Part shown: positions 773 through 14,957 of the stretch, piece by piece
How positions within the stretch are numbered: position 1 is the first letter of the stretch
How the letters are laid out: every line of letters begins with the position of its first letter
Source of the DNA: a virus
Length of the DNA stretch: 21,577 bases
Strand: one strand, 5' to 3'
Virus record (IMG/VR): IMGVR_UViG_3300021085_000262
Coordinates: 1-21,577 of that record
The notes under the pieces: model-generated
Databases searched by the model: none
What the model saw: the letters and a program-made list of their open reading frames with translations, nothing else
What the model was told of the DNA's origin: nothing
Program-made: the position numbers and the translations under genes

Positions 773-774
773 TC

Positions 775-963
775 ATGCGCTTCGTCACATACAAACACGA
801 CCTAGACCTGGTCAAACAAGCCATCGCGTCACTGCACGTCGATCTCAAAGACAACCAGGTACATGAAGTTGCAGACCTTTTGCAATATGTACCAACAGAA
901 ATCCTCAAGTCCTACATCATCGATGCGGATCTTCAAGAATTCTGGGAGGACAAACGATCTTGA
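775..963 (+). CDS. hypothetical 62-aa early protein
   Basis: A strong SD (TTGGAGG) lies 7 bases before the ATG. The small protein is probably mostly helical (LVKQAIASLHVDL, VADLLQYVPTEIL). No known family recognised. Its end overlaps the TTG start of the next gene. Confidence 0.65.
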   Translation: MRFVTYKHDLDLVKQAIASLHVDLKDNQVHEVADLLQYVPTEILKSYIIDADLQEFWEDKRS

Positions 964-1157
964 GAGCCGTGTATCGATACACCATCACAGACAGAGCAAT
1001 TGCATTACTTAACGGCGGCTATCGTGAAGACGAAGTCGTCTCCAACTTAACTGTCGAGTTCACCTTCGACGAATTCCAACTCGAAGACTTACCCAAGCTA
1101 GTAAGTCTTATCAACCAGAAAAGGATCAAAGCCAATGACAAGCAAGGAAGCTCATAA
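960..1157 (+). CDS. hypothetical 65-aa early protein, TTG start
   Basis: The frame has no usable ATG. The TTG at 960 sits nine bases after GGGAGGA and overlaps the preceding TGA (TTGA), so it is the likely start; a GTG at 969 is the alternative. The product is acidic in its middle, with a run of alternating Phe/Asp/Glu. It overlaps the next gene by 23 bases. Function unknown. Confidence 0.6.
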   Translation: MRAVYRYTITDRAIALLNGGYREDEVVSNLTVEFTFDEFQLEDLPKLVSLINQKRIKANDKQGSS

Positions 1158-1332
1158 CATCCGAACGCAGCTGTATGTGTCATCGCAGCTAATCGCAAAC
1201 CTGTATGACGACTGCCCAGAGTCCATCTGCATCAATCTAGCCGCCGACAAAATCGACGACGTTATAAACCTAACAAACATGTTCCTAGACGGAATGATCT
1301 TCGACGACGACAAACAGAGTATCAGCCGATGA
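1135..1332 (+). CDS. hypothetical 65-aa early protein
   Basis: AAAGGATC lies upstream of the ATG. The small acidic protein has two cysteines (CPESIC). Its last third is rich in Asp/Ile/Leu and somewhat resembles the preceding product (acidic, hydrophobic C-terminal half). No family recognised. Confidence 0.62.
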   Translation: MTSKEAHNIRTQLYVSSQLIANLYDDCPESICINLAADKIDDVINLTNMFLDGMIFDDDKQSISR

Positions 1333-1481
1333 ACCATAACTACATAGTTACTTGGCGCATCGAGCTTACCGCTGCAACACCTCGCGAAGCAGCTAAACAA
1401 GCCCGTGAAATGCAACTCGATCCAGAAAGTACTGCCACTGTTTTCGAAATAGCCATCGACGTAGATGTTAATGAGGACTAA
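1329..1481 (+). CDS. small conserved hypothetical protein, 50 aa
   Basis: ATG at 1329 overlaps the preceding TGA (ATGA). Translation begins MNHNYIVTWRIEL and continues through PREAAKQAREMQLDPESTATVFEI, then ends in an acidic tail. The pattern (strand, AA-rich helix, DPxSxATVFxI strand) resembles a small family found in bacteria and their phages, usually listed as hypothetical. I infer a beta-alpha-beta mini-fold; the function is unknown. Confidence 0.6.
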   Translation: MNHNYIVTWRIELTAATPREAAKQAREMQLDPESTATVFEIAIDVDVNED

Positions 1482-1483
1482 CC

Positions 1484-1609
1484 ATGATGCCTTACCCCTT
1501 TGATTGCCCCAAGTGCGGCCAGCGCTATTGGGAAGAGCAATCAGTGGTCTACAACAAAGACTACGACGACACTATTTGCTGGCAATGTGACGAGGAACAC
1601 GAATCATGA
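1484..1609 (+). CDS. zinc-ribbon-like 41-aa protein
   Basis: Starts at the first of two ATGs (1484, 1487). It contains two CxxC knuckles, C8-P-K-C11 and C32-W-Q-C35, separated by about 20 residues: a minimal zinc ribbon. Such small zinc proteins in phage early regions can bind nucleic acid or host proteins, but which applies here cannot be told. The stop overlaps the next ATG. Confidence 0.6.
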   Translation: MMPYPFDCPKCGQRYWEEQSVVYNKDYDDTICWQCDEEHES

Positions 1610-1631
1610 ACAACGAATCACGCACCATCAA
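1590..1631. repeat. heptamer repeat array B
   Basis: Consecutive 7-base units: ACGAGGA, ACACGAA, TCATGAA, CAACGAA, TCACGCA, CCATCAA. The array spans the stop of the zinc-ribbon gene and the SD and start (1606) of the next gene. Its last two units are degenerate. Confidence 0.55.
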
Positions 1632-1800
1632 GACTGAGCATGACGTTATGGTCACTCTGCTTTCTTACTTACATCACCACTATTTAAAAGTCAGTGAGAC
1701 AGACGAAGCCCACGTAACCATATCTGTTGACCCCGTAGAACTAACGCAATGCATCGCTGTGCTAGCACGCGCCCAAACAATGAGGAGCATCCAGCCATGA
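1606..1800 (+). CDS. hypothetical 64-aa early protein
   Basis: The ATG at 1606 follows GAGGA within a heptamer array. The product has a His-rich stretch (SYLHHHYLKV) and no recognised domain. It is coupled to both neighbours by ATGA overlaps. Function unknown. Confidence 0.62.
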   Translation: MNNESRTIKTEHDVMVTLLSYLHHHYLKVSETDEAHVTISVDPVELTQCIAVLARAQTMRSIQP

Positions 1801-2021
1801 TTTATCCAGTCCCAGACATTAACGTAGGGCTTAGCCTAAGTCCGCTTGAACTAAATTTCCTGCAAGTTGCAGTCGATCACCTTATCGACGTGCAACGCGA
1901 CGTAATTAAAGACTGCGCTAACCAATCCGAAGACTTAGACATAGAGCCTATCTACGAAGCAATTGAACGATTGCGCGCAGGTGTAGACCTCAAGCACTCG
2001 CTGGAGATATTTAACCCATGA
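1797..2021 (+). CDS. hypothetical 74-aa early protein
   Basis: The ATG at 1797 is preceded by TGAGGAG and overlaps the previous stop; an upstream in-frame start at 1749 lies inside the previous gene and is less likely. The protein is mostly helical and acidic, with a central helix beginning FLQVAVDHLIDV. No family recognised. Confidence 0.65.
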   Translation: MIYPVPDINVGLSLSPLELNFLQVAVDHLIDVQRDVIKDCANQSEDLDIEPIYEAIERLRAGVDLKHSLEIFNP

Positions 2022-2203
2022 GCAATAAAGACCAGGCGAGCAACGGTGCAGCAATGACCTTCGACCAAATAGGTAAAGAAATAGGTCTCACCCGCAACGG
2101 AGCAAAACACGTCTACATGCAAGCACTCAAGAAACTAGAAGGAGACAAACGCCTACAAGACTACGCTGACCACGAACCCCGAACCGAGGACAAAGAACCA
2201 TGA
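2018..2203 (+). CDS. sigma-region-4-like HTH protein, 61 aa
   Basis: Residues 13-42 read MTFDQIGKEIGLTRNGAKHV followed by YMQALKKLEG. This is the helix-turn-helix pattern of sigma70 region 4 (the -35-recognition helix family), where the usual text is like TLEEIGKxxGVTRERVRQI. No region 2 is present, so it cannot be a full sigma factor. By family resemblance it should bind DNA or the RNA polymerase flap, and so may redirect host transcription (inference). The start at 2018 overlaps the preceding stop; an internal ATG at 2054 lacks a good SD. Confidence 0.65.
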   Translation: MSNKDQASNGAAMTFDQIGKEIGLTRNGAKHVYMQALKKLEGDKRLQDYADHEPRTEDKEP

Positions 2204-2204
2204 G
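2170..2204. repeat. heptamer repeat array C
   Basis: Five units: CCACGAA, CCCCGAA, CCGAGGA, CAAAGAA, CCATGAG. As in array A, the CCGAGGA unit forms the SD, and the ATG of the last unit starts the next gene (2200). Confidence 0.6.
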
Positions 2205-2361
2205 CCGCATGCCATGCAGCATCACCGACGACCCATACAACGACTACTCAGACTACATCGAACAGAAAGGTGTCTACAAACCATACGTCGAACCAGACCC
2301 AGACGAGGCTTACGAAGAACAACGCCAGAAGGAGCTCGATGAATCAACCAAATCTGACTGA
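2200..2361 (+). CDS. hypothetical 53-aa acidic protein
   Basis: The start at 2200 has GAGGA upstream and an ATGA overlap. The product is very acidic and Tyr/Asp/Glu rich, with little predicted fold. Such acidic peptides can mimic DNA or bind host enzymes, but nothing here proves it. It overlaps the next gene by 23 bases. Confidence 0.6.
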   Translation: MSRMPCSITDDPYNDYSDYIEQKGVYKPYVEPDPDEAYEEQRQKELDESTKSD

Positions 2362-2485
2362 TGAGCAAATCATAGATTTGTTCGACACACACCCAAACCT
2401 ATTTCTCAGTGAAATAGCCACGTTAACCGGCAAAACAGTGCCCGAACTCAAGAAAATATTATTAGGGAGCAACAAATGGAATTAG
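2339..2485 (+). CDS. hypothetical 48-aa HTH-like protein
   Basis: A strong AAGGAG lies five bases before the ATG at 2339. Residues 23-41 (LSEIATLTGKTVPELKKIL) fit a short helix-turn-helix. DNA binding is inferred from this pattern only. It overlaps the next gene by ten bases. Confidence 0.58.
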   Translation: MNQPNLTDEQIIDLFDTHPNLFLSEIATLTGKTVPELKKILLGSNKWN

Positions 2486-2829
2486 TAGCACTTAACCAGT
2501 TCACTGGATCTCAAACTTTCACTCGCTGGACGCCAATCTCCAACAGTGTACTCACCGAAGGTGCATTATACGTAGCTGATCAAGCAGGTGCGTACTGGCT
2601 GTTCGACGCCATCCAAAGCCATCTTGACGAAACAAAAGCTGACTGGGCTCAAACAGTTCTTACTGTAAACGACGACGACAGCGCCGAGTTAGTCATGACA
2701 AATGGCAACAACGACCCACTCAGCTCGCAAAAAGTCCCGTTCACCGACTTCCCACAGAAACAAATCACGATTTGGTCGGTACGCAACGAGCTCAATGCTC
2801 ACACCCACATGCTGCCATCGGAGTACTAA
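2476..2829 (+). CDS. DUF6876-like protein
   Basis: The 117-aa product has NQFTGSQTFTRW near the N-terminus and VLTEGALYVADQAGAYWLFD around residues 25-44. Together these resemble the DUF6876 family (FTG...YTDG.KYLA..AGAYWL.D), found in phages and mobile elements. The family function is not known. SD GGGAGC is upstream of the ATG. It is soluble and about the usual length. Family assignment is from memory of the motif. Confidence 0.65.
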   Translation: MELVALNQFTGSQTFTRWTPISNSVLTEGALYVADQAGAYWLFDAIQSHLDETKADWAQTVLTVNDDDSAELVMTNGNNDPLSSQKVPFTDFPQKQITIWSVRNELNAHTHMLPSEY

Positions 2830-2831
2830 TT

Positions 2832-3077
2832 ATGGACAGTACGACACATAAAACCATTGCAGTAACAGCTGTCATGGAAACAGACCTCGTCACGTATATA
2901 AATGTTCCTATAAATGTTAACGATGACGACCTCTGGACATTTATACGCGATGGAAACATCGACGGTGGAGACATGGCAGAAGCTGGCAGCGGTGACTGGC
3001 GTTGGCAACAGCCCTACGAAACTGATTTCAGTGACTTGCATGATGACTATTCAAAGGAAGTTAAAAATTATGACTGA
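2832..3077 (+). CDS. hypothetical 81-aa early protein
   Basis: The ATG at 2832 has GGAG nine bases upstream. The product is strongly acidic. Its centre (DDDLWTFIRDGNIDGGDMAEAGSG) resembles the end of several small phage proteins of unknown function. No membrane segment. Confidence 0.6.
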   Translation: MDSTTHKTIAVTAVMETDLVTYINVPINVNDDDLWTFIRDGNIDGGDMAEAGSGDWRWQQPYETDFSDLHDDYSKEVKNYD

Positions 3078-3258
3078 CACAACCGTTCTACTTCAACCCG
3101 TGGGAATCGTCCACACACCCAAAGATCTAAACGAACTTGAATCCTATATCAATAAGTTCAGCAGCGGAGAACGTATGGTTGCCTTCACCTGCGCCTACAT
3201 GGCCTGGAACTTAGCCGCCAAACTTACCAACCCAGAAGGGAGGTCAGCTAATGACTGA
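3070..3258 (+). CDS. hypothetical 62-aa early protein
   Basis: The ATG at 3070 follows GGAAG and overlaps the preceding gene by eight bases. The product is moderately hydrophobic in its second half (MVAFTCAYMAWNLAAKL), which could be an amphipathic helix. No known family. Confidence 0.6.
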   Translation: MTDTTVLLQPVGIVHTPKDLNELESYINKFSSGERMVAFTCAYMAWNLAAKLTNPEGRSAND

Positions 3259-3604
3259 CATATATGCAAATGAGTTCATGGAAGCGTTCGCCCGACTAAT
3301 CAAGGAAACAACCGCAGAGGCACTGCTGATACACGACACTAAGCTCGAAGATCGAATCGATGACCTCGAATCGCAAGCCTCGGACCACGACGATCGCATC
3401 GAAGTCATCGATGGAGCTTTCACCGACGTAGAAGAGCACGGCGAACGTCTCGACAATATTGAGCTATTTGAAGAGCGGATCGAAACGCTAGAAAACCAAC
3501 TGCGACAAATAACTGATCTCGATAAACTTGTAGAAAGAAAAATTCAAGAAATGATCAGTCAGAATCGCCTCAAACTCTACGTTGCATCGCCACCGCCGCA
3601 ATAG
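3251..3604 (+). CDS. coiled-coil protein, 117 aa
   Basis: A GGGAGG SD lies just before the ATG. The N-terminal 30 residues are helical; from about residue 30 to 105 the sequence is rich in Glu, Asp, Arg and Leu with heptad spacing (LEDRIDDLESQASDHDDRIE, ERIETLENQLRQI). This is a long coiled coil, likely oligomeric. It is the last gene of the first early block; a promoter follows at once. Function unknown. Confidence 0.7.
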   Translation: MTDIYANEFMEAFARLIKETTAEALLIHDTKLEDRIDDLESQASDHDDRIEVIDGAFTDVEEHGERLDNIELFEERIETLENQLRQITDLDKLVERKIQEMISQNRLKLYVASPPPQ

Positions 3605-3607
3605 TAG

Positions 3608-3636
3608 TTGAACTAATATATTAGAATTAGTACTAT
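3608..3636 (+). promoter_or_regulatory. sigma70-like promoter with operator palindrome
   Basis: TTGAAC (3608-3613), a 17-base spacer, then TACTAT (3631-3636). The spacer contains the 12-base palindrome CTAATATATTAG (3613-3624). An imperfect ATATTAG-N5-CTAATAT element lies at 3618-3636 (12 of 14 arm bases match). It precedes the DUF3310/polymerase operon. The same palindrome recurs at 6378, 8919 and 11351. Confidence 0.6.
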
Positions 3637-3658
3637 TTCGCTGACTTAGGAGAGTACA

Positions 3659-3985
3659 ATGACTATAAACAAAGCGACACCCCAGGAATGGGACCGAGTA
3701 CGAATAAAAGTAAACCCTGATTATGTCGACCCATACGACATCCAACCTAACGACCCAGTTAACAGCCCTAGCCACTATAACTCTGGCGACATTGAGTGCA
3801 TTGATGCAATCGAAGCATCTATGTCACCCGAAGCATTCAAAGGGTATCTCAAAGGCAACGTAGAAAAGTACGTGTGGCGCATGTCTTACAAAGGCAAGCC
3901 GGTAGAAGATCTACGCAAAGCACGTTTCTACCTCGACCGACTCATCTCGACAGAACTAGGCGAGCCGTCAGTGAAAAAGTCATGA
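3659..3985 (+). CDS. DUF3310 family phage protein
   Basis: The 108-aa protein contains PVNSPSHYNSGDIECIDAIE (about residues 32-51) and GNVEKYVWRMSYKGKPVEDL, followed by RKARFYLDRLI. These are the hallmarks of DUF3310 (PF11753), small proteins common in phage replication regions. They are sometimes labelled nucleotide kinases, without strong evidence. AGGAGAG precedes the ATG. It heads the operon that carries the DNA polymerase. Confidence 0.85.
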   Translation: MTINKATPQEWDRVRIKVNPDYVDPYDIQPNDPVNSPSHYNSGDIECIDAIEASMSPEAFKGYLKGNVEKYVWRMSYKGKPVEDLRKARFYLDRLISTELGEPSVKKS

Positions 3986-4197
3986 CCACACCCTTCACTG
4001 ATGTAGATGCAGCAGTTGAAGAAGGTCATTTCATACAAAACACACTAAACAAGACCGCGTACCTAGTATGTGACGTTCACCGTGATATCTATGTACTTAC
4101 TGAGGATCAGTACGCCCATAAAAAGTGGGCTGATCACACAGTACTAGAGATATTTCATCCAGGAGGATGCAATGGAGACGAAAGAGTACCTCGATAG
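3982..4197 (+). CDS. hypothetical 71-aa protein
   Basis: The ATG at 3982 overlaps the preceding stop (ATGA). There is no good SD, so expression probably depends on coupling. It is soluble, with a middle segment of likely beta strands (TAYLVCDVHRDIYVLTEDQY). Unknown function. Confidence 0.58.
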   Translation: MTTPFTDVDAAVEEGHFIQNTLNKTAYLVCDVHRDIYVLTEDQYAHKKWADHTVLEIFHPGGCNGDERVPR

Positions 4198-4378
4198 CCT
4201 GTCTAGCCTCAAAGACGACCAAATACACCCCGAGTTCCATACCTTTACTACTGTATGGATGAAGTCGCGAATGCCCGAACGATATGCAGAGCTCATGTCT
4301 CAATACCGAGCCATTGAAGGCGAAATCTACGCGCAATACCAATGCGACGATGCTAATTCACCGGAGATACCATTCTAA
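4172..4378 (+). CDS. hypothetical 68-aa protein
   Basis: A near-perfect SD (AGGAGG) precedes the ATG at 4172, inside the end of the previous gene. The protein is helical and acidic. Its stop and the polymerase start share one base (TAATG), so the two are probably co-translated. Unknown function. Confidence 0.65.
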   Translation: METKEYLDSLSSLKDDQIHPEFHTFTTVWMKSRMPERYAELMSQYRAIEGEIYAQYQCDDANSPEIPF

Positions 4379-6183
4379 TGTTAGTTACCCTGGACTTTGA
4401 GACGTACTTCGACACCAAAGTGTCGTTGTCAAAGCTAACGACTATGGACTATGTCCGACACGAGAAATTCAAAGTGTGGGGCGTAGGCATCAAAATTGAT
4501 GACGGACCCACTGAATGGTTTGGTGAAGACGAAGCAGAAGTCGCCATCAGCGAGATTGACTGGAGACAAGCGACAGTCATCTGCCACAACACACCATTCG
4601 ATGGTTATATTTTAACCAGGTACTACCGCGTCACCCCCGCGTACTACATTGACACCGCAGCAATGAGCCGTGGCTTATTCCCTGGTCAATCAGCTCGTCT
4701 CAAAGACTGTGCAATCCGTTGCTTTCCAGACGACGAAACTATGCGCAAAGGTGACGAGCTCATCGATGCTAAAGGTATCTATGATCTTGACCCCGAAACT
4801 GAGCAAGCCCTGGGAGGCTACTGCATCCAGGACGTTGACCTCACCTGGGCGCTATACCAGCAGATGATTGATCAGATGCCCCAATCAGAAATGGACATCA
4901 TCGATCTAACCTGTCGTATGTTCTGCGAACCAAAGCTGACCGTGGACCTCGATTCACTCATCGCGTTCCGTGATGATCAGATCGCAGCTAGTGAAAAAGC
5001 GATCAATGATGCAGGTATTGATCGGAAAATCCTCAGTTCTAATCAGCAGTTTGCTGAGTATATAAAGACTGACCTGGGCCTGGTGCCACCCACTAAGCGC
5101 AGCCCAACCACAGGCAAAGACATTCCTGCCCTTGGTAAAAACGACAAGGCATTCACCCAAATGCAGAGAATGTACCCAGAACACGAACCTATCTGGGCAG
5201 CACGCAAAGCAGTTAAGAGTCGAATCAACGAGACTAGAGCTCAACGCTTCATCGATGCAGCTCACGACGACGGCACCATCTCAGTCCCGCTGCGCTATTA
5301 CGCTGCACACACCGGACGGTTTGGTGGGACAGAAAAAATCAACATGCAGAACATGCCTCGCAACTCCCCACTACGCAAAGCACTGTATGCACCCAAAGGT
5401 CAGCTCGTATTCGTAGCTGACTTATCAAACATTGAAGCACGTATGCTTGCCTGGCTTGCAGATGAAGATGACTTACTCGAGCAGTTCCGCAACGGCGACG
5501 ACATCTACAGCAACCTGGCAACAAAAATCTATGGCAGACCCATCAATAAGACAGATGACCCAACAGAACGATTCGTTGGTAAGACAGCTGTCCTTGGTCT
5601 TGGGTATGGCATGGGTGCAGCAAAGTTCCAATCAACCCTGGAAGCGGGTGCGATGGGACCACCAATGAAGTTCACCACTGAAGAAGCCTTTGACGTAGTC
5701 AATACATACCGCAGTACGTATTCAGGTGTACAACTTCTTTGGAGCAAGCTCGAGCTTAAATTAGCTAACACTATTAACCCAAGTTACGACGAGCACTGGC
5801 ATGGCCTCCGTTTCCACCGCGGCAAGATTCATCTGCCCAACGGTATGGCTCTGCACTACAACAACCTCCGGTACGAGGGAGGTCAGCTTACCTACGACTC
5901 ACGAGCAACGGAGTCTACATGGGGTGGGCGCATCACAGAAAATGTGGTGCAAGCGCTATCTAGGATCATCGTCACAGATTCTATGTTGCGTATACAACAA
6001 GACGCATCTCTTGATGCACAAGTCGTTCTGACTGTCCACGATGAAATCGTATTAATTAGCCAAGCTAATAACCCCGATGCTACAATGGGAAAGCTTATAG
6101 CACACATGTGCCAACCGCCTTCGTGGGCAAAAGATATACCCCTCGACGCGGAGGGTGGTTATGACTTTAGTTACAGTAAATGA
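4378..6183 (+). CDS. family A DNA polymerase with 3'-5' exonuclease
   Basis: The 601-aa replicative polymerase copies phage DNA and proofreads. The N-terminal exonuclease has D6-F-E8, H70-N71-T-P-F-D75 and Y148-C-I-Q-D152, the three DnaQ-like metal-site motifs. The polymerase domain has motif A D348-L-S-N-I-E-A-R355, motif B K402-x3-L-x3-Y410-G, and motif C H554-D-E556. All catalytic residues are present, and the length fits phage polymerases lacking the 5'-3' nuclease domain. It is coupled to the upstream small gene and overlaps the CsrA-like gene (ATGA). Primase-helicase and nucleases follow, so this is the core of a self-encoded replisome. Confidence 0.95.
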   Translation: MLVTLDFETYFDTKVSLSKLTTMDYVRHEKFKVWGVGIKIDDGPTEWFGEDEAEVAISEIDWRQATVICHNTPFDGYILTRYYRVTPAYYIDTAAMSRGLFPGQSARLKDCAIRCFPDDETMRKGDELIDAKGIYDLDPETEQALGGYCIQDVDLTWALYQQMIDQMPQSEMDIIDLTCRMFCEPKLTVDLDSLIAFRDDQIAASEKAINDAGIDRKILSSNQQFAEYIKTDLGLVPPTKRSPTTGKDIPALGKNDKAFTQMQRMYPEHEPIWAARKAVKSRINETRAQRFIDAAHDDGTISVPLRYYAAHTGRFGGTEKINMQNMPRNSPLRKALYAPKGQLVFVADLSNIEARMLAWLADEDDLLEQFRNGDDIYSNLATKIYGRPINKTDDPTERFVGKTAVLGLGYGMGAAKFQSTLEAGAMGPPMKFTTEEAFDVVNTYRSTYSGVQLLWSKLELKLANTINPSYDEHWHGLRFHRGKIHLPNGMALHYNNLRYEGGQLTYDSRATESTWGGRITENVVQALSRIIVTDSMLRIQQDASLDAQVVLTVHDEIVLISQANNPDATMGKLIAHMCQPPSWAKDIPLDAEGGYDFSYSK

Positions 6184-6377
6184 CATCAATGCCGCGACTA
6201 GTACTAACAAGGAAACTCAACGAGAAAATCATCCTTCATGATGATGACGGTGTTCTTGCTGAAGTAAAGATATCAAAAGTCGATAGGAATCAGGTCCGTC
6301 TTACATTTGAAGCGGACGAAAGCATCAAAATTGATCGACAAGAAATATTTAATAAGAACGCCGATCCTACTAAATAG
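6180..6377 (+). CDS. csrA: CsrA/RsmA-like RNA-binding regulator
   Basis: The 65-aa protein (or 62 aa from the ATG at 6189) contains RLVLTRKLNEKIIL, VKISKVDRNQVRLTFEA and IKIDRQEIF. These align along the full length with CsrA (LILTRRVGETLMIG..., V-KGNQVRIGV-AP, V-VHREEIY). The two residues most important for RNA binding in E. coli CsrA, L4 and R44, correspond to L9 and R53 here and are conserved. CsrA dimers bind GGA in RNA loops and usually block ribosome access or change mRNA stability. The gene lies between DNA polymerase (4-base overlap) and the primase-helicase. I infer control of phage or host translation during infection. The C-terminal tail is short. Confidence 0.85.
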   Translation: MTSMPRLVLTRKLNEKIILHDDDGVLAEVKISKVDRNQVRLTFEADESIKIDRQEIFNKNADPTK

Positions 6378-6396
6378 ATATTAGTCATGCTAATAT
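6378..6396 (+). promoter_or_regulatory. operator palindrome and extended -10 promoter
   Basis: ATATTAG-TCATG-CTAATAT: seven-base perfect arms with a five-base spacer. TGC followed by TAATAT (6388-6396) forms an extended -10 inside the right arm; the -35 region is weak. It lies in the only gap between the CsrA-like gene and the primase-helicase gene. Confidence 0.6.
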
Positions 6397-6401
6397 AAGC
6401 T

Positions 6402-6417
6402 GCTCTGTAGGAGGAGC
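6402..6417 (+). promoter_or_regulatory. small GGA-loop hairpin over the primase-helicase SD
   Basis: GCUC pairs with GAGC, leaving the loop UGUAGGAG, so the SD AGGAGG is partly in the loop and partly in the stem. GGA in a hairpin loop is the preferred CsrA target. A CsrA-like gene ends 25 bases upstream. The stem is only 4 bp, so this is suggestive rather than proven. Confidence 0.35.
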
Positions 6418-6418
6418 C

Positions 6419-8917
6419 ATGCACTTAACTTTTTTAGAGGCCGCCAACGGACAGCGGCTCAGCAAACGTCACTGTCCTAAAAACGGATTCACCCCTTATC
6501 CACATGTAAAAAGCGTAACATCACACCAATACGACATCCCAACAGACGGAACTGGGTTGTCAATGCTAGAAAAACTTATTCGCGATCACGGTAAACAAGG
6601 CCACTGCCTTCTTAAAGGTAACCTCAAAAGACCCATACAAAACGAATCGCGAGCTGGTAAGACAGATCGAATTGGCTACTCAAATCTTTTAGTACTTGAT
6701 ATTGATGGCATCGTAATCCCTGGTCATACCAATCCTAAAACCTTTACAGACAAAGATGTCAGCACATTAGCGAAAGCTGTGATGCGTGAGCTGCCACCTC
6801 AAGTGCAAGACTGTAGCTTCATAGCACAAGCATCAGCCAGTCTAGGTTTAAAAGGCGACAAAGTTTCCCTACACATCTTCATCCTGTTATCACATGCAAT
6901 GCCTGCAAAAGCAGTCAAGCTGTGGTTACAAGACAGTAATTTTGAGTCTCAGCTGTTTTCATCGCAGTTAGAGCTGTCCAGTAACGGACACTCTTTAAAG
7001 TATCCTCTGGATGCTAGCGTAGCTGACAACTCAAAGCTCATCTTCATTGCGCCTCCTACCTTTGAAGACGGAACCCACGATCCGTTCAGATCTAGTTCTG
7101 AGCGGATCGTGCGCGTTTCGGGTATATCGGAGACGCTAGATCTTGCTGGATTAATGGCTGACATCAGTCCAGAAGTAGTCCATCAGAAGAGCAATGTATA
7201 TAAAAACAAACTGCGTGTAGCCCGTGGCTTCAACGCTAAGAAAGAACGGTTGACCATCGCCACTGTAGACAACAAGTCAGAAGAAATACTGACTAACCCT
7301 GACCGCATGTCAATACAGATCACAGACGATACCAACCCACCGTACATACGTTGCAACGTCAATGGTGGGGACAGCAATGCCTACTACTTTAAGATTGAAG
7401 ACCCCACCTACATGTACAACTTTAAGGGTGAGCCGATCTGGTCAATAGAGCAGGCAGACCCTGACTTCTACAAGTCTTTGTTTGATCACTACCAAGAAGA
7501 AATGGAGAAAGAAGGTCGAGCTAATTTCCCTGTAGCTATGCGTGACTTCTATACAGACACCTACTACAACGGAGTATTCGACCCAAACTTAAACCAATTC
7601 AGTAACGAGTTCCCACTAATGCCTTGTTCATCAGCAAGTATCGAAGGCTTCATGCGATCGCATGGTCGTAGCAAGCCTGACTATATACCTGATGCACGGG
7701 TTGTATTCGATCCTGCCTCAGACGATGCAGCAGTAAACCTGGCTAACGTGCCATACCACATCAACATGTTCCGTAAGACAGAGTACATGCTGTCGAACCG
7801 TGAGCACGAACCGCTAAGCATGGGTGACTCAGCAAAGATCGCGGACTCTTGCCCGCTGATCTACAAACTCATGACTCACATTCTTGGTGGGCAGAACCTT
7901 GAGGTTGAGCACTTTACTAACTGGCTGGCATACATCTTCCAGACCAAGCGCAAAGCAATGACTGCTTGGGTTCTACAAGGTGTACCAGGCACAGGTAAAG
8001 GTATCTTCTACACCAAGGTACTCAGACCATTGTTTGGTAACGAGCATGTACCAATGCGTGCGTTACAAAACATAGAAGAGCAGTTCAACTTGTACATGCG
8101 CCAGGCATTGTTCCTGGTGGTCGATGAGTTTCATATGGCTTCAGCCAACGCTGGCACTATGAAGATTGCGGACAAACTCAAGAACGCGATCACTGAAAAC
8201 ACAATGACTATTCGTGCAATGCGCTCTAACCAGGTAGAAATGCCTAACTACACAAACTTTATCTTCCTTACCAACCGTATGGATGCTGTAAAGATTGAAG
8301 AGGGCGATCGTCGTTACAACATCGCACCTCGCCAAGAACAAAAGCTCGAGCATGTGTATCCAGAAGTTATTGATGGCATCGATGACATCAGCACTGAGCT
8401 ACACAAGTTTGCTGCGCTACTGCGTAACTACAAAGTCAACAAGCAGCTCGTTCGTACACCTATTGCTAACAACGCCAAAGCACAGATGGCTCAAGTCACT
8501 ATGTCTGTAATGGAAGAGTTCTTTGCAGCAGTACGACACGGCAAGCTTAGTGTGTTCCTAGATATATTAGACATCAGTGTGACTAACGTCATGCAGGGTC
8601 AAGAGATTACTACTGCACAACGCTTCGTTAAACAGTGGGTAGCAGAGTCACAATGGCCACACTCAGTCATTCCAATGGAGCACCTCCGTGTTGTGTACGG
8701 TGTACTAACCGATGACCGCTTGTCTCAACGCGAGTTCCAAAAGAAAGCAGCACGCTGTGGTGTTAGTAAAGAACGTAAGCGTGTACATGGTGCCTCAAGA
8801 CACGCAAATACAGTAATGGGTGTAGTAACGACTTGGAAATTAGAAGCTGACATTTTCAACGAAGTTACTGACAAGTACTTCGACGACAAAGACCGCAAGC
8901 TGCTAGCCGTCAGCTAA
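6419..8917 (+). CDS. primase-helicase (AEP-like primase plus SF3/D5-type helicase)
   Basis: An 832-aa protein. The N-terminal part has a primase-like pattern: L-D94-I-D96-G (motif I, DxD) and S150-L-H152 (motif II, SxH), typical of archaeo-eukaryotic primase folds. The C-terminal part is an SF3/D5-type helicase close to DUF5906: Walker A GVPGTGKG (about 521-528), Walker B LFLVVDEFH (about 564-572), an asparagine sensor within FIFLTNRMD, and an arginine-finger-like GDRRYN (about 629-634). It should prime and unwind phage DNA for the polymerase encoded upstream. A very strong SD (TAGGAGGAG) precedes the ATG. A candidate promoter/operator and the GGA hairpin lie immediately upstream. No zinc-finger primase domain is seen. 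Confidence 0.88.
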   Translation: MHLTFLEAANGQRLSKRHCPKNGFTPYPHVKSVTSHQYDIPTDGTGLSMLEKLIRDHGKQGHCLLKGNLKRPIQNESRAGKTDRIGYSNLLVLDIDGIVIPGHTNPKTFTDKDVSTLAKAVMRELPPQVQDCSFIAQASASLGLKGDKVSLHIFILLSHAMPAKAVKLWLQDSNFESQLFSSQLELSSNGHSLKYPLDASVADNSKLIFIAPPTFEDGTHDPFRSSSERIVRVSGISETLDLAGLMADISPEVVHQKSNVYKNKLRVARGFNAKKERLTIATVDNKSEEILTNPDRMSIQITDDTNPPYIRCNVNGGDSNAYYFKIEDPTYMYNFKGEPIWSIEQADPDFYKSLFDHYQEEMEKEGRANFPVAMRDFYTDTYYNGVFDPNLNQFSNEFPLMPCSSASIEGFMRSHGRSKPDYIPDARVVFDPASDDAAVNLANVPYHINMFRKTEYMLSNREHEPLSMGDSAKIADSCPLIYKLMTHILGGQNLEVEHFTNWLAYIFQTKRKAMTAWVLQGVPGTGKGIFYTKVLRPLFGNEHVPMRALQNIEEQFNLYMRQALFLVVDEFHMASANAGTMKIADKLKNAITENTMTIRAMRSNQVEMPNYTNFIFLTNRMDAVKIEEGDRRYNIAPRQEQKLEHVYPEVIDGIDDISTELHKFAALLRNYKVNKQLVRTPIANNAKAQMAQVTMSVMEEFFAAVRHGKLSVFLDILDISVTNVMQGQEITTAQRFVKQWVAESQWPHSVIPMEHLRVVYGVLTDDRLSQREFQKKAARCGVSKERKRVHGASRHANTVMGVVTTWKLEADIFNEVTDKYFDDKDRKLLAVS

Positions 8918-8918
8918 A

Positions 8919-8937
8919 ATAATAGCTATACTAATAT
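8919..8937 (+). promoter_or_regulatory. operator-like palindrome with -10 element
   Basis: ATAATAG-CTATA-CTAATAT: matches the ATATTAG-N5-CTAATAT consensus at 13 of 14 arm bases. TATACT (8927-8932) is a good -10; no convincing -35 is seen. It fills the gap between the primase-helicase and the Fe-S nuclease gene. Confidence 0.5.
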
Positions 8938-8964
8938 CTCTACTTATCACTACTAGGAAAGTAA

Positions 8965-9714
8965 ATGATTAAGTTGACACAAGCTACACGACCTGACGAT
9001 GTAGTCGACTTCGAAAAACCAGAAAAACTAGGCGACGTTAGAGCCTGGAGCTACTCAGCTCTCAAGGTCTACGAAGAGTGCCCTTATCGTACCTACATAG
9101 GTCGCGTTAAGGGCGTCAAAGAACCTAGTGGCCCTGCTGCAGACCGCGGCACCGAGATCCACCAATACGCTGAAGACTATGTCAACGGCACTATGGGTGA
9201 GATGCACGACACCCTTCATAAATTCAAAGATGACTTTGAAGAACTGCGGCAGCTTTTCATCGAAGCAAAAGTAGAACTAGAAGGTGAGTGGGGCTTTGAC
9301 CTGGACTGGGCACCAGTCGGTTGGATGCAGAAAGAAACCTGGGCTCGTATCAAACTCGATGCCCTGGTCCAAGAAGACGACACCTCTGCACGCGTCATCG
9401 ACTACAAGACCGGTAAGAAGTGGGGTAACGAAATAGCCCACGGTCAACAAGGTCTGCTCTATGCAATCGGTACGTTCTTCAGATACCCACACTTGCAGTT
9501 TGTGCAGGTTGAGTTCTGGTATCTCGATAAAGGTGAGACAACCAAGAAGACGTACACACGCGACCAGGCAATGGTATTTGCACCAGGCTTTCATCGTCGT
9601 GCAATCAAGATGACTACCGAAACAGACTTTGATCCAACACCCAGCAAAGACAGTTGCAGGTGGTGTTCGTTCCGTAAAGGTGACGAGCCCGAATGCACCT
9701 GGGGTGTCGGCTAA
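8965..9714 (+). CDS. PD-(D/E)XK exonuclease, Cas4/RecB-type with Fe-S cysteines
   Basis: A 249-aa nuclease of the PDDEXK_1/RecB-Cas4 group. Seen: WSYSALKVYEECPYR at the N-terminus, RGTEIH with H66, D132 in KLDAL, D146-Y-K148 in VIDYKTGK, and Q161-Q-G-L-L-Y166 (the QxxxY motif). Four cysteines, C39, C231, C234 and C244, are placed as in AddB/Cas4 4Fe-4S nucleases. Members resect DNA ends 5'-3' or 3'-5'. In a phage it would process replication or recombination ends, or degrade host DNA (inference). SD AGGAAA precedes the ATG. It is the last gene before a strong terminator. No other CRISPR gene or array is present, so it should not be called a CRISPR protein. Confidence 0.85.
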   Translation: MIKLTQATRPDDVVDFEKPEKLGDVRAWSYSALKVYEECPYRTYIGRVKGVKEPSGPAADRGTEIHQYAEDYVNGTMGEMHDTLHKFKDDFEELRQLFIEAKVELEGEWGFDLDWAPVGWMQKETWARIKLDALVQEDDTSARVIDYKTGKKWGNEIAHGQQGLLYAIGTFFRYPHLQFVQVEFWYLDKGETTKKTYTRDQAMVFAPGFHRRAIKMTTETDFDPTPSKDSCRWCSFRKGDEPECTWGVG

Positions 9715-9741
9715 CTAATTCACAGCTCCCCCTGTGTAGTT

Positions 9742-9768
9742 GCCCCACCTAGGTGGGGCTTTTTTATT
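9742..9768 (+). terminator. rho-independent terminator
   Basis: The palindrome GCCCCACCTAGGTGGGGC (9742-9759) folds as a 7-bp GC-rich stem with loop CTAG and is followed by TTTTTTATT. It lies 28 bases after the stop of the nuclease gene and closes the replication operon. There is no T-run on the other side, so it acts on + strand transcripts only. Confidence 0.92.
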
Positions 9769-9791
9769 CCCGATCGGAATTCAAATGATCC

Positions 9792-9812
9792 TCACGAAAC
9801 ATGAAACATGAA
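9792..9812. repeat. heptamer repeat array D
   Basis: Three units, TCACGAA, ACATGAA, ACATGAA, followed by GAGAGAAT, which serves as the SD for the gene at 9825. It is almost the same as array E at 13126. Confidence 0.65.
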
Positions 9813-9824
9813 GAGAGAATCCCT

Positions 9825-9998
9825 ATGAAACTATTCAAGACCCTATGCAGCAATGCGCTTATGTTCATCGTAAGTGTACTTGCTGTCTTACTTACCCTAT
9901 CTGTCCTCGGACAAGCCCTCGCTCTCGGTTTCTACGCGCTGCTGCTCACTGCAGTCGTGGGCCTTGTTGCGTTCTTATATTTCAGGAGACCTACGTGA
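9825..9998 (+). CDS. small membrane protein, 57 aa, two TM segments
   Basis: GAGAGAAT lies before the ATG at 9825; an in-frame ATG at 9801 lies within the heptamer array and is less likely. After a short basic N-terminus (MKLFKTLCSN) come two hydrophobic helices, about residues 11-29 and 33-51, and a basic end (YFRRPT). This suggests a hairpin in the inner membrane. It is the first of three co-transcribed membrane genes; function (exclusion, holin-like, membrane anchoring of replication) cannot be decided. Confidence 0.6.
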   Translation: MKLFKTLCSNALMFIVSVLAVLLTLSVLGQALALGFYALLLTAVVGLVAFLYFRRPT

Positions 9999-10123
9999 TT
10001 CAAGCAGTACTCACTTTACTCAGCCTTTACGAAACACTTTTTCTAATCGCAGCCATTATTGGAGTTACCTATGATTTTTGCAGGTCTACTTTCGGCGCTC
10101 GGCTTACTGTTCCTAATCTTTAA
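9995..10123 (+). CDS. small membrane protein, 42 aa, GTG start
   Basis: The GTG at 9995 overlaps the preceding TGA (GTGA) and has AGGAG six bases upstream, so it is a well-supported start. Residues 1-25 are strongly hydrophobic (VLTLLSLYETLFLIAAIIGV): one TM helix or signal anchor. The C-terminal half overlaps the next gene by 53 bases. Unknown function. Confidence 0.5.
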   Translation: MIQAVLTLLSLYETLFLIAAIIGVTYDFCRSTFGARLTVPNL

Positions 10124-10361
10124 GTTCGGCATACGCCGCGTCATTGCCTACGACATACCTATCGACATCACCGTTACAGCTTTTCTCATGTACGCATTCG
10201 CCGGTACATACAGCGGCATGATTGCTGCAATGGTCGGCGGTCTTATTGTCTCCGTCACCTTGTTCATCATGAAACGCACCATGCGTCGCGAAGAACTACA
10301 ACTTGTCAAAACCTCAAACTTTCCATATCGCGCCGTGCGCTGGATAGGAGTCCAACCATGA
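10071..10361 (+). CDS. membrane protein, 96 aa, about three TM segments
   Basis: TTGGAG lies before the ATG at 10071. Hydrophobic segments: about residues 2-18, 33-51 and 53-69, with basic loops between (FKFGIRRV) and a basic C-terminal tail (MKRTMRRE). This indicates an inner membrane protein with its C-terminus probably in the cytoplasm. Similar small membrane proteins occur in phage replication regions. Role unknown. Confidence 0.65.
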   Translation: MIFAGLLSALGLLFLIFKFGIRRVIAYDIPIDITVTAFLMYAFAGTYSGMIAAMVGGLIVSVTLFIMKRTMRREELQLVKTSNFPYRAVRWIGVQP

Positions 10362-10579
10362 TTGATTACAAAGAGCTGCTTTGCGGCCACTTAAAGGAGA
10401 TGTACGGAAATGCAGATGTTCTACAAACGCGACGGGTGGCTAGTCGAATACAAGCTCGTTACAGACCCAGCGGAAGCGATGTACTGGACTACACACCGTT
10501 TGAAGAAATCAGAGATCAGGATTATGACGCAGTGCGATCGCGCAACAGCAGCTCAACTCAGACAGGAGATACTCGATGA
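10358..10579 (+). CDS. hypothetical 73-aa protein overlapping the next frame
   Basis: The ATG at 10358 follows GGAG and overlaps the preceding stop (ATGA). Its own stop overlaps the start at 10576 (ATGA), the pattern of real genes here. However, most of its length (10410-10579) lies under a second, better-looking reading frame. The second half is rich in Arg, Asp and Ser and looks less like a folded protein. Either both frames are used or this one is only a leader. Confidence 0.4.
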   Translation: MIDYKELLCGHLKEMYGNADVLQTRRVASRIQARYRPSGSDVLDYTPFEEIRDQDYDAVRSRNSSSTQTGDTR

Positions 10580-10628
10580 CATCCTCAGTAGAGAACCTAA
10601 TCCCACTAAAAGAAAAGCGGCCAGCTAA
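10410..10628 (+). CDS. hypothetical 72-aa protein
   Basis: AAAGGAG lies upstream of the ATG at 10410 (a second ATG is at 10416). The sequence starts MQMFYKRDGWLVEYKL and is followed by acidic and helical segments, with codon choice like neighbouring genes. It overlaps the previous frame by 170 bases and the next gene by 53. No family recognised. Confidence 0.5.
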   Translation: MQMFYKRDGWLVEYKLVTDPAEAMYWTTHRLKKSEIRIMTQCDRATAAQLRQEILDDILSREPNPTKRKAAS

Positions 10629-11331
10629 GCTGCTCAGCAGAGACAGCAACACTAAGCTCATCAAGACTGCTAAGAACCAACCCGTTGTCTTGGCGGGTCT
10701 GTCGATGATGCCAACGCCTGAGCTGTGTCCTTCATCTAAAATTGCTAAATGCTTTGATCCCTGCCTCAAGCATAGTGGGCTCGCCCAGGTGTACAGGAGC
10801 ATCAATGACGCACGTCAGCGCAAAACGGATTACTTTTTGCAGCAGACAGATGAATTTATCAGCCACCTCAACAGAGAGCTTACTAACCTCAGTGCCTACG
10901 CTGCTAAACACAGCAAGCGCGCAGTTGTTCGACTCAACGTTCTGTCAGATGTAGCCTGGGAAAACTATGGTGTTATCCAGAACTTCCCTGACATTTTGTT
11001 CTATGACTACACCAAACGCGCTGCCCGTCTAAGCAAAACACCGAGCAACTACCATCTCATGTTTAGCTACAGCGGCGCTCCTAAGTACCAAACCCAAGTC
11101 AACATGGCGCTAAAAACTGACGTACCCATCACTGTAGTCTTTAGGAATGGACTGCCCTCTAAGTTCCTGGGACGTGATGTTATAGATGGCGACAAATCTG
11201 ACCTGGATAACTTAAAAGCCCGAAACAAAATTGTAGGGCTGCGCGTCAAAGGCAACGAAGCTAAACAATCAGACAGTCCGTTTATCGTAGATTCGCAGAC
11301 GTGTCCTGTTCCACTATTACTTGCTGCTTAA
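10576..11331 (+). CDS. DUF7227/gp88-like phage protein
   Basis: The 251-aa protein resembles a conserved phage family of unknown function (DUF7227/gp88-like). Seen in order: NTKLIKTAKNQP; a cysteine group CPSSKIAKCFDPC (C-x7-C-x3-C); VVRLNVLSDVAWE; FPDILFYDYTKRA; NYHLMFSYSG; VDGD-like VIDGDKSD; VGLRVKGNE. The cysteines could bind a metal or Fe-S cluster. The fold has been compared to barrel-type enzymes, but no reaction is established. AGGAGA precedes the ATG. It ends just before the promoter of the helicase gene. Family assignment is by motif memory. Confidence 0.6.
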   Translation: MTSSVENLIPLKEKRPAKLLSRDSNTKLIKTAKNQPVVLAGLSMMPTPELCPSSKIAKCFDPCLKHSGLAQVYRSINDARQRKTDYFLQQTDEFISHLNRELTNLSAYAAKHSKRAVVRLNVLSDVAWENYGVIQNFPDILFYDYTKRAARLSKTPSNYHLMFSYSGAPKYQTQVNMALKTDVPITVVFRNGLPSKFLGRDVIDGDKSDLDNLKARNKIVGLRVKGNEAKQSDSPFIVDSQTCPVPLLLAA

Positions 11332-11340
11332 TACATCCAT

Positions 11341-11369
11341 TTGCCCCGATATATTAGCTATGCTAATAT
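11341..11369 (+). promoter_or_regulatory. sigma70 extended -10 promoter with 21-bp operator
   Basis: TTGCCC (11341-11346), a 17-base spacer, then TAATAT (11364-11369) with an upstream TG (11361-11362). The -10 is embedded in the perfect palindrome TATATTAGC-TAT-GCTAATATA (11350-11370), the best copy of the operator family. A repressor there would block RNA polymerase directly. Confidence 0.72.
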
Positions 11370-11394
11370 ACTAAACCATCAATGAGTGATGACT

Positions 11395-12732
11395 ATGTAC
11401 GAACCTTTCGAGCATCAAAAGATCACGACGGACTTCATTCTCGCCAACCCTCGTTGCCTCATCACATCTGACCCAGGCACAGGCAAGACACGATCCGTAC
11501 TAGACGCGATCGTGGGCCGCGAATCACGAACCTTAGTTCTCGCACCGTTGTCCATCCTCGAAGCATCATGGGGAGATGACATCGACAAGTTCACTCCTAA
11601 CCTTACGTACGCAGTTGCGTACGCTAAGAATCGTGAGAAAGCATTCGCTGGTACAGAAAACGTAGTCATCACTAATCATGACGCAGTCAAATGGCTCGCT
11701 AAAAATCTTCATGTACTTGCCGACTTCGATACCCTGGTCATTGACGAGTTCACTGCATTCAAGAACCAAAGCAGTCAGCGCAGCAAAGCATGCAAGAAGA
11801 TCGCAGAAGCATTCACACATCGCATTGCTATGTCTGGCACACCCAACAGCAACGGTATCCTCGACGTGTGGCACCCAACGCTAATCGTAGACGACGGACA
11901 ACGTCTCGGGCATCGCTTCTATAGCTTCCGCTCGTCTGTCTGTACACCGCGTTTCAATGGCTTTGCCAACGAGTGGGTACAAAAAGATGACTCCGAAGAA
12001 GTAGTAGCTGCTGCGCTCAGTGACATCAACATACGCTTCGAGCTAACCGAATGTATCGACATGCCACCGCAAAGCGTACAGACCATGTACGTATCGCTGC
12101 CTAAGAAAATCATGCAGCAGTACCAGCAGCTTAGCGAAGACTCTGTGTTGTACACCGGAGAAGCAACCATCAACGCTGTGCACGCTGGCAGTAAAGTCAA
12201 GAAGCTACTTCAGTTGTGTACCGGCGCTGTCTATGACGAGAACGGTGACACACAACGCATTCACAAAGAACGGTATGACATCGTCATGCAGCTCGTTGCC
12301 GAACGTGCGCAGTCACTTGTTGCATTCAACTGGAAACACGAGCAGCGGTACATGGTTGAGCTAGCAGACAAGATGGGTATCAAGCACGCAACGATTGACG
12401 GCAGTACAGCAGCACACAAACGCAAAGAGATTGTTGACCGGCTACAAGCGGGGCAGCTACAGGTTGTGTTCTGTCACCCACAGTCAGCAGGTCACGGCTT
12501 GACCATGACCAAAGCAAAGACAGTCATATGGGCGTCGCCTACATACAACGCAGAACATTATCAGCAGTTCAACCGTCGCATCTATCGAGCCGGTCAAACT
12601 GAAAAGACTGAGGTCATACAGATCGCCGCACGCAACACCTGGGAACCAGAAGTGTATGAGAAGTTGCAAGGCAAGGTCGATCGTATGGACCAGTTACTCG
12701 GAATACTAAACAAACTAAAGCAAGCAGCCTAA
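11395..12732 (+). CDS. SNF2-type superfamily 2 DNA helicase
   Basis: About 445 aa from the ATG at 11395; in-frame GTG 11386 and ATG 11389 are alternatives, and none has a strong SD. Numbered from 11386, the motifs are Q-like EPFEHQ, Walker A DPGTGKT (29-35), motif II D120-E-F-T, motif III MSGTP (149-153), and in the second RecA domain GLTMTKAKTVIW and QQFNRRIYRAGQ (motif VI). This is the compact phage SNF2/DEAD-like helicase group, which moves along double-stranded DNA and may assist replication fork restart or recombination. It has its own operator-controlled promoter. The expected leader is only 10-20 bases, so initiation may be unusual. Confidence 0.88.
   Translation: MYEPFEHQKITTDFILANPRCLITSDPGTGKTRSVLDAIVGRESRTLVLAPLSILEASWGDDIDKFTPNLTYAVAYAKNREKAFAGTENVVITNHDAVKWLAKNLHVLADFDTLVIDEFTAFKNQSSQRSKACKKIAEAFTHRIAMSGTPNSNGILDVWHPTLIVDDGQRLGHRFYSFRSSVCTPRFNGFANEWVQKDDSEEVVAAALSDINIRFELTECIDMPPQSVQTMYVSLPKKIMQQYQQLSEDSVLYTGEATINAVHAGSKVKKLLQLCTGAVYDENGDTQRIHKERYDIVMQLVAERAQSLVAFNWKHEQRYMVELADKMGIKHATIDGSTAAHKRKEIVDRLQAGQLQVVFCHPQSAGHGLTMTKAKTVIWASPTYNAEHYQQFNRRIYRAGQTEKTEVIQIAARNTWEPEVYEKLQGKVDRMDQLLGILNKLKQAA
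11517..11530. repeat. heptamer repeat array F (short)
   Basis: Two units, CCGCGAA and TCACGAA, inside the helicase coding region, followed by CCTTAGT. This is the shortest copy of the family and could be chance. Confidence 0.35.
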
Positions 12733-12753
12733 ACCCACCAAGAGAAAACTACT

Positions 12754-13119
12754 ATGACTATAAATGAACTTATTGAACTCAGAGCAACTGTCAAAGATGA
12801 CATTGCTGACCTCAACGCCCAACTCAAGGTGTTGAACAAATCTAAAGAAGAGCTTGATTGGCAGCTCTTGAACCAATTGGACGAGCAGGGTTTGTCACGT
12901 ACCGCTAATGACAAAGCCAGCGTGTCCATTAACCAAGATACTGTACCTGACGTGACTGACTGGGACGCTCTTTATGAGCACATCAACAGCACTAAAGACT
13001 ACAGCCTCTTGCAAAGACGGGTCTCGTCGACTGCATACAAAGAACTTCTAAAGCTTGGAGAAGAAGTCCCTGGTCTGCAGCCCCGTGAAATTCGACGCAT
13101 TAACTTTCGATCCCTTTAA
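12754..13119 (+). CDS. conserved phage protein, coiled-coil N-terminus, 121 aa
   Basis: Residues 1-48 form a coiled coil (LNAQLKVLNKSKEELDWQLL). Residues 55-121 carry VSINQDTVPDVTDWDALYEH, a LLQRRVSSTAYKELL helix and a VPGLQPREIRRINF end. This pattern is common in phage proteins encoded next to helicase and single-strand-binding genes; function unknown. GAGA lies upstream of the ATG. It is probably co-transcribed with the helicase. Confidence 0.65.
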   Translation: MTINELIELRATVKDDIADLNAQLKVLNKSKEELDWQLLNQLDEQGLSRTANDKASVSINQDTVPDVTDWDALYEHINSTKDYSLLQRRVSSTAYKELLKLGEEVPGLQPREIRRINFRSL

Positions 13120-13125
13120 ACCTAA

Positions 13126-13146
13126 ACATGAATCATGAATCACGAA
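13126..13146. repeat. heptamer repeat array E
   Basis: Three units, ACATGAA, TCATGAA, TCACGAA, followed by GAGAAT and then the ATG at 13160. It mirrors array D in sequence and in position before a start codon. Confidence 0.65.
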
Positions 13147-13159
13147 GAGAATATATATT

Positions 13160-13846
13160 ATGCCTAAATCAGCAGTAGCAGTAGCAACCAGCCTCGTAGC
13201 ATCCACTGACACTTTGCCAGCGCACCTCAAAGCTGTACAAGGTTCCGGTCGAGGCAACGAAAACGTAGGTCAGAACGTCACGATTCCTCGTGTCAAACTC
13301 CTGCAGAAAATGTCTAACGAAGTCGACAAGCACCACGCGGCTTATGTTGAAGGCTGTGAGCCAGGTCACCTGGTCAACACGCTGAACAATCATAACTACG
13401 GTAATGATTTGTACTGCATCTCACTCACCTTCAAGCTTGAGTACGTTGTATGGCGTCAACTAGACGCAGGCGGCGGTTACGGTGGTGCATTCAGCTCAAT
13501 GGCTGACGCAGAAGCCTACGTCAATCAGCAAGACAAGCCTTCCGAGTGGGACATCAACGAGACTCATGCTCACGTCCTTCTTATCAAAGATCCTGAGACA
13601 GGTGAGCTCGAGCGTTCACCAGCGATTATGGATTTCGCTAGCTCCAAGCTGCGTGTATCCAAAGCATGGAACTCTCAGATCGGTATGAAAGGCGGCGACC
13701 GTTTCGCAGGTCTTTGGAAAGTTTCTGGCGTACCTACCGAAAACAAGATGGGCAAGGCATTTATGAATTGCGAAGTCTCGTTTGTTGGCTGGGCTCAGGA
13801 AGAAGACTACAAGGTAGCTGAGTCGCTGTACGAACAGTACAGCTAA
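13160..13846 (+). CDS. conserved phage protein, possibly single-strand DNA binding
   Basis: The 228-aa protein begins with a low-complexity Ala/Ser/Val segment, then a folded domain from about residue 42 (IPRVKLLQKMSNEVDKHHAA) through LYCISLTFKLEYVVWRQLDA to SPAIMDFASSKLRVSKAWNS and RFAGLWKVSGV. It is likely beta-rich and ends in an acidic, Glu/Tyr-rich stretch. This set of features and the neighbourhood (helicase, nuclease, polymerase) fit a phage single-strand-binding protein. I know no decisive motif, so the function is inference. An SD (GAAGAGAA) from the heptamer array precedes the ATG. Confidence 0.6.
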   Translation: MPKSAVAVATSLVASTDTLPAHLKAVQGSGRGNENVGQNVTIPRVKLLQKMSNEVDKHHAAYVEGCEPGHLVNTLNNHNYGNDLYCISLTFKLEYVVWRQLDAGGGYGGAFSSMADAEAYVNQQDKPSEWDINETHAHVLLIKDPETGELERSPAIMDFASSKLRVSKAWNSQIGMKGGDRFAGLWKVSGVPTENKMGKAFMNCEVSFVGWAQEEDYKVAESLYEQYS

Positions 13847-13924
13847 CTAGATAGGTCAAGGGCGAGAGTGGTCGTCCTATAGTACCGGCTTGGCCCACCG
13901 TAGACCGAAACGGGCTCCTTATTT

Positions 13925-14918: not shown

Positions 14919-14943
14919 AGTATTATTTTAACTTTAATAGACT
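14915..14943 (+). promoter_or_regulatory. candidate promoter before the excisionase-like gene
   Basis: TTGAAG (14915-14920), a 17-base spacer, TAGACT (14938-14943): four of six matches in each box. It is in the 94-base gap between repressor and excisionase-like gene. Confidence 0.35.
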
Positions 14944-14957
14944 CTATTCTGTTAAGC

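Follow-up and report, generated by a model that had tools for sequence, protein, structure and literature searches.

A promoter-overlapping palindrome as the predicted operator of a lambda-CI-like repressor in a group of uncultured temperate phages

In bacteriophage P1, a single repressor, C1, acts at 22 operators that are dispersed over the genome and include its own promoter region (PMC8546580). The Rep protein of the cluster A mycobacteriophage L5 has 20–30 asymmetric stoperators of 13–14 bp, to which it binds as a monomer and at most of which it stops elongation (PMC6550527, PMC9283540). In the SPbeta prophage, about ten promoter regions contain SPBRE and are bound by the master repressor MrpR (YopR) (PMC10516654). 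The dispersed-operator layout is known from a few other phages and, as far as we found, is apparently undescribed for the uncultured group treated here; a search of the literature, covering little of the subscription literature, yielded no description of regulation in this group.

The window analyzed here is the whole 21,577-nt stretch of the IMG/VR record IMGVR_UViG_3300021085_000262, a 21.6-kb fragment of an uncultured phage. Judged by its helicase, primase and capsid, it is closest among named phages to KPP25/phiR18 and phiA008 (28–51% identity). The first part of the + arm encodes a nucleotide-kinase-like protein, a family A DNA polymerase, CsrA, a DUF5906/VapE-type primase-helicase and a PD-(D/E)XK nuclease; the later part encodes an SNF2-type helicase, a Gam-like protein, a Pam3 gp34-like protein, a small protein, the repressor (14319–14918) and an HTH_17 excisionase-like protein (15013–15234, + strand). 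The small protein, which we take to be VRR-NUC-like, matched weakly a PHROG labelled DNA helicase and had no Pfam match. The – strand carries a tyrosine integrase (15191–16189) and tail genes, including an open-ended tail protein (18797–21577) with a long repetitive Ala/Ser/Thr/Asn-rich stretch. A small HNH_3-type endonuclease gene (1.1e-6; 16566–16799, – strand) lies near the integrase, and repressor-less relatives have small proteins like it at the same junction. The CsrA homologue (6180–6377; Pfam CsrA, 6.3e-13), located between the DNA polymerase and the primase, is kept in most relatives with 49–98% identity and is a post-transcriptional regulator carried by the phage. The interval between the nuclease and helicase genes contains a cargo-like insert (9715–11331) with a terminator hairpin at 9742, two small presumed membrane proteins and a phrog_1617 protein, for which no defence family match was found; it occurs in only a few members of the group (the window, L158–L161, L181, L191 and L207). 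The hairpin (9742–9769, + strand) is intrinsic terminator-like by consensus match only; it lies 3' of the nuclease gene and marks a transcription-unit end.

We scanned the window for the pattern ATATTAG-N5-CTAATAT, scoring the arm match out of 14 bases and allowing at most two or at most three mismatches. The preliminary description had listed four such palindromes, all of which are present at the positions and with the arm matches given there; its count was incomplete, having overlooked an overlapping fifth site at 3601 and a weaker pair at 14893/14908. With at most two mismatches, the five sites of the window are those four and the site at 3601. The latter, predicted operator 1a (3601–3619; ATAGTAGTTGAACTAATAT; 13/14), shares 2 bp with operator 1b (3618–3636; ATATTAGAATTAGTACTAT; 12/14), so that the two form a tandem with a centre-to-centre distance of 17 bp. 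The spacer of 1a contains the -35 element of the kinase-gap promoter (TTGAAC, 3608–3613), and the -10 element (TACTAT, 3631–3636) lies in the right arm of 1b, 17 nt past TTGAAC. Operator 2 (6378–6396; ATATTAGTCATGCTAATAT; 14/14) is located right after the csrA stop codon, ahead of the primase-helicase gene, and includes an extended -10 element (TGCTAATAT) without a -35. Operator 3 (8919–8937; ATAATAGCTATACTAATAT; 13/14) precedes the PD-(D/E)XK nuclease gene and has a central candidate -10 element, TATACT (8927–8932); its -35 is weak in the window, and TTG is present in most relatives. Operator 4 (11351–11369; ATATTAGCTATGCTAATAT; 14/14) lies ahead of the helicase gene, where the promoter reads TTGCCC (11341–11346), 17 nt and TAATAT (11364–11369), with the TG of an extended -10; as had been proposed, this site can be extended to 21 bp by one more T-A pair flanking the arms. 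The weaker tandem pair (14893–14911 and 14908–14926; 11/14 each) is a probable operator 5, situated where the repressor gene ends, between it and the excisionase-like gene. The consensus of the palindrome is ATATTAGYNNNRCTAATAT.

These sites are far more frequent than expected by chance. With at most three mismatches, nine matches were found in the window, compared with 0.71 ± 0.86 in 100 dinucleotide shuffles (maximum 4; none of the 100 reached 9). When the AT-rich gaps alone were resampled, 0.027 sites with at most two mismatches were expected per 951 bp, and five were observed. Chance AT-rich palindromes are ruled out by these two tests. The placement in gaps of the + arm also held, the five best sites all being gap-centred, although gaps account for only 3.9% of bases 237–15234 (the early arm, by our own gene list).

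A search based on the repressor retrieved six viral contigs with three to nine sites each at no more than two mismatches, compared with zero or one for a reversed control pattern. When the viral collection was scanned with the palindrome alone, blind to any gene, at least 119 stretches matched, and at least 11 contigs among the matches listed belong to this phage family, as judged by contig names from separate helicase or repressor searches. For comparison we assembled 124 non-redundant loci, found mainly by the helicase, and tabulated site positions in the first 86. Across loci, the palindrome precedes the same genes: the kinase (in tandem, at -58/-41), the primase (about -41), the nuclease (about -46) and the helicase (-35). 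In the excisionase gap it was variably present among the first 86 loci. The half-site derived from 252 distinct sites is ATATTAGY. In fuller relatives, a site is also found ahead of the major capsid gene, internal-virion-protein, tail and other late genes, and a gene that we presume to encode the small terminase because it directly precedes that of the large subunit. The preliminary picture needs correction in two respects: the 3601/3618 sites form a tandem operator, and relatives also have a site before late genes.

We then oriented the sites by their downstream genes and compared the gene strand with the opposite strand across relatives. In the helicase gap, TTG followed after 17 or 18 nt by the right-arm hexamer TAWTAT was present in 54/60 cases on the gene strand and in 5/60 on the opposite strand. 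For the kinase gap, a TTG was located 17 or 18 nt upstream of that hexamer position in 18/19 relatives (0/19 on the opposite strand). For the nuclease gap, the same spacing leads to TATAnT in the palindrome centre (18/31, compared with 0 on the opposite strand), a register that was picked after inspecting the spacing counts and is partly post hoc. Elongation-only sites had been suspected in this gap, where no -35 stands at the usual place, and the suspicion was dropped when TTG-17/18-TATACT was found in the palindrome centre. In the primase gap, an extended -10 was observed in 17/26 relatives (4 on the opposite strand), and no -35 was seen in the aligned relatives. Phages such as L168 and L173 retain the -35 despite changed arm sequences. 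Scanning for promoters at a fixed TTGACA/TATAAT cut-off gave none at the expected positions because the -35 elements are TTGAAC, TTGAGC or TTGCCC and the -10 elements are TAATAT, TATTAT or TACTAT; we therefore relied on the geometry aligned across relatives. Since promoter elements occur mainly on the gene strand and at fixed spacing, the palindrome overlays promoters, as expected of an operator. Thus, the overlap with a -10 or promoter spacer claimed in the preliminary description holds and is strand-specific in relatives; in the window's own copies at 6378 and 8919, the -35 is absent or weak. The promoter enrichment that it proposed to seek by a wider motif scan is likewise seen, the site recurring in same-gene gaps across about 120 relatives.

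Relatives of the helicase are also present in bacterial genome contigs. The locus in Motiliproteus coralliicola has a divergent CI-like gene and a cousin operator, TATTAGC-N3-GCTAATA, which corresponds to the inner part of the window palindrome with the Y/R positions fixed. In this 4.2-Mb genome, all 17 matches to the cousin operator with at most one mismatch fall within one 60-kb prophage (1,362,364–1,422,531 of one contig); 14 of the 17 are in gaps, and both arms are represented. Similarly, 12 of 13 cousin sites of an Endozoicomonas genome lie on the prophage contig. Within a single phage genome, one site recurs ahead of many units and does not recur elsewhere, with 17/17 sites inside the Motiliproteus prophage.

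The protein encoded at 14319–14918 (+ strand, 199 aa), which had been called an XRE repressor, has an HTH_3 DNA-binding domain that is of the lambda CI type by sequence and by predicted fold, followed by a beta-rich C-terminal domain. A profile of 28 repressor relatives matched lambda CI chains at 2.5e-8, and the predicted fold aligned with lambda CI fragments at TM scores by target of 0.68–0.78, so that sequence profile and predicted fold both place the CI-type HTH domain in the lambda CI family. The segment W[ST]QGAISHYLNNIT of the recognition region is near-invariant in the closer operator-sharing phages, even at about 40% overall repressor identity. The C-terminal domain was modelled confidently as beta-rich (pLDDT 87); its model had no match in the PDB (best E 0.57), no S24/LexA-type self-cleavage domain was detected by Pfam S24 or by LexA/S24 fold comparison, and no conserved Ser/Lys pair was seen in the repressor alignment. 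Because this domain has neither a solved-structure match nor an S24 signature by sequence or fold, RecA-driven self-cleavage as the means of relief is unsupported. No divergent cI/cro switch was found around the repressor; the surrounding genes are co-directional without a divergent neighbour before it, and a co-directional run beginning at operator 4 ends with the repressor gene. In L214–L222, the repressor is shrunk to 85–86 residues, a Cro-sized protein consisting of the DNA-binding domain only, with no xis or int match, and the helicase operator is ATATAAG-N5-CTAATAT or close to it.

We also compared the presence of the repressor gene with that of the site. The helicase tree implies at least seven switches between presence and absence of the repressor gene. 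The helicase-gap site was lacking in 13 of the 18 loci judged repressor-less and present in 75 of the 92 with a repressor; in several of the repressor-bearing loci without it, an inserted gene has displaced the palindrome to a position about 210 bp further upstream. The five repressor-less loci that keep the site belong to two lineages (L206; L296/L297/L304/L314). The clearest sister pair is L200, which has the repressor and sites in several gaps, and L203, in which no repressor and no helicase- or nuclease-gap site was found. In a tree-corrected paired test of joint loss, too few pairs were available for significance and no pair ran in the opposite direction; we accordingly rejected joint loss as formal proof. 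Relatives without a detected repressor include L203, L206, L212, L227, L279, L307 and L335; the first four, as inspected, also lack xis and int, and structural genes follow. These are probably virulent lineages descended from temperate ones.

The covariation between operator and recognition region was weak (partial r 0.16, p 0.04; C-terminal domain, r 0.10, p 0.01); it is not specific to the DNA-binding domain and was set aside as proof. Two single cases are suggestive. ATAATA-type operators accompany a Thr-Pro-Leu or Val-Pro-Leu turn in L168, L173 and L192, with L181 as an exception to this pairing. In L363, another palindrome, ATAGTAT-N5-ATACTAT, stands ahead of the nuclease and helicase genes (at L363:61 and L363:1180) together with a changed recognition helix (HYIVDIISL), a combination that could possibly reflect a switch of immunity specificity.

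The sites, their conservation, the promoter geometry, the prophage confinement and the association with a CI-like gene were all computed directly. Judging from these patterns in the genomes, the palindrome is very likely the operator of the CI-like 14319–14918 protein, a single master repressor with dispersed, promoter-overlapping operators. From the same patterns we infer binding by this protein as a dimer, repression and autoregulation. Operator copies would overlap host sigma-70-type promoters of separate early units and, in fuller relatives, of late units as well (major capsid, terminase and tail). A repressor dimer on each dyad would mask the -10, in many cases along with the -35, and exclude RNA polymerase, so that every unit would be silenced at once in the lysogen with no divergent cI/cro switch of the lambda kind. 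As the final gene of the operator 4 run, the repressor probably limits its own synthesis. That one repressor silences several units through a repeated operator, as first suggested for the window, is supported by same-gene conservation and strand-specific promoter geometry, and further by the confinement of the cousin operator to a prophage, by the co-occurrence of the sites with the CI-like gene and by the joint loss of both in most relatives lacking that gene.

Like L5 Rep, the repressor might instead work mainly by stopping polymerase that is already elongating between genes, not by blocking promoters. The sites do lie in short gaps of long co-directional gene runs, late genes included, the primase gap has no -35, and L5 stoperators also occupy short intergenic spaces (PMC9283540). 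However, most sites are overlapped by strand-specific promoter elements, and they are symmetric, whereas those of L5 are asymmetric 13–14-mers oriented with transcription (PMC6550527); we consider this explanation very improbable. Another possibility is a promoter sequence that is symmetric by accident, with a TAATAT -10 and a mirrored spacer and no repressor involved, and the right arm does double as the -10 in several gaps. A -10 does not need the mirrored left arm, yet both arms are kept; its location in the palindrome differs by gap (right arm for the helicase, centre for the nuclease); and most repressor-less relatives lost the palindrome but kept the genes. We give this explanation hardly any credence.

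The palindrome could also be bound by another regulator, such as the Xis-like protein, the integrase or a host factor, with the repressor as a bystander. Because xis and int are usually lost along with the repressor, joint loss alone does not single out the repressor. For that reason the L214–L221 loci matter: they retain the repressor domain and the site and have no xis or int match, a combination that points to the repressor rather than to Xis or Int, as far as gene content indicates. Nor does a host regulator fit well, since its site would not be expected to be missing from the Motiliproteus genome outside the prophage, as the cousin operator is. Binding by another regulator thus appears very improbable. 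Returning to the master repressor, we advance a wider reading tentatively, at a little short of an even chance: this uncultured temperate group, distant kin of KPP25/phiR18, would have no cI/cro switch, and one autoregulated repressor, combining a lambda-CI-type domain with a C-terminal fold unseen in solved structures, would directly shut early and late promoters through 5–17 dyads, with repression lifted by a route that does not involve RecA-driven self-cleavage.

If true, these phages carry an immunity code that can be read from the genome across a large uncultured group; the operator would predict the promoters silenced in the lysogen, the phages possibly sharing immunity and the relatives that lost lysogeny. 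The operator variants, the repressor-less lineages and the 85-residue form with only a DNA-binding domain would offer natural experiments on dispersed repressor–operator evolution, and M. coralliicola would be a sequenced host for testing the dispersed-operator model.

Compared with lambda CI, the repressor has a homologous DNA-binding domain and predicted dyad operators over the -10 and -35, two of which stand in tandem at an early promoter; in contrast, no divergent cI/cro region was found, sites precede many units instead of forming two tripartite operators, and the C-terminal domain has no LexA/S24 fold match. The contrast with the lambda switch drawn in the preliminary description stands for the circuit layout, although the DNA-binding domain is itself of the lambda CI type. 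As with P1 C1, one repressor is predicted to act at many dispersed operators, although those of P1 are asymmetric 17-mers (PMC8546580) and those here 19-bp dyads. L5 similarly has many sites in short intergenic spaces, among early and late genes, whose sequence drifts with the phage (PMC6550527); the sites here are instead symmetric dyads with the half-site ATATTAGY that overlap promoters, and not of the asymmetric L5 type. The likeness to MrpR is that of one master repressor at many promoter regions of one prophage, whereas MrpR descends from a tyrosine recombinase (PMC10516654) and the repressor here is a lambda-CI-type helix-turn-helix protein. With no divergent cro and with dispersed sites like those of P1 C1, L5 and MrpR, the arrangement is, as originally suggested, closer to the multi-site repression of these temperate phages than to the divergent lambda switch.
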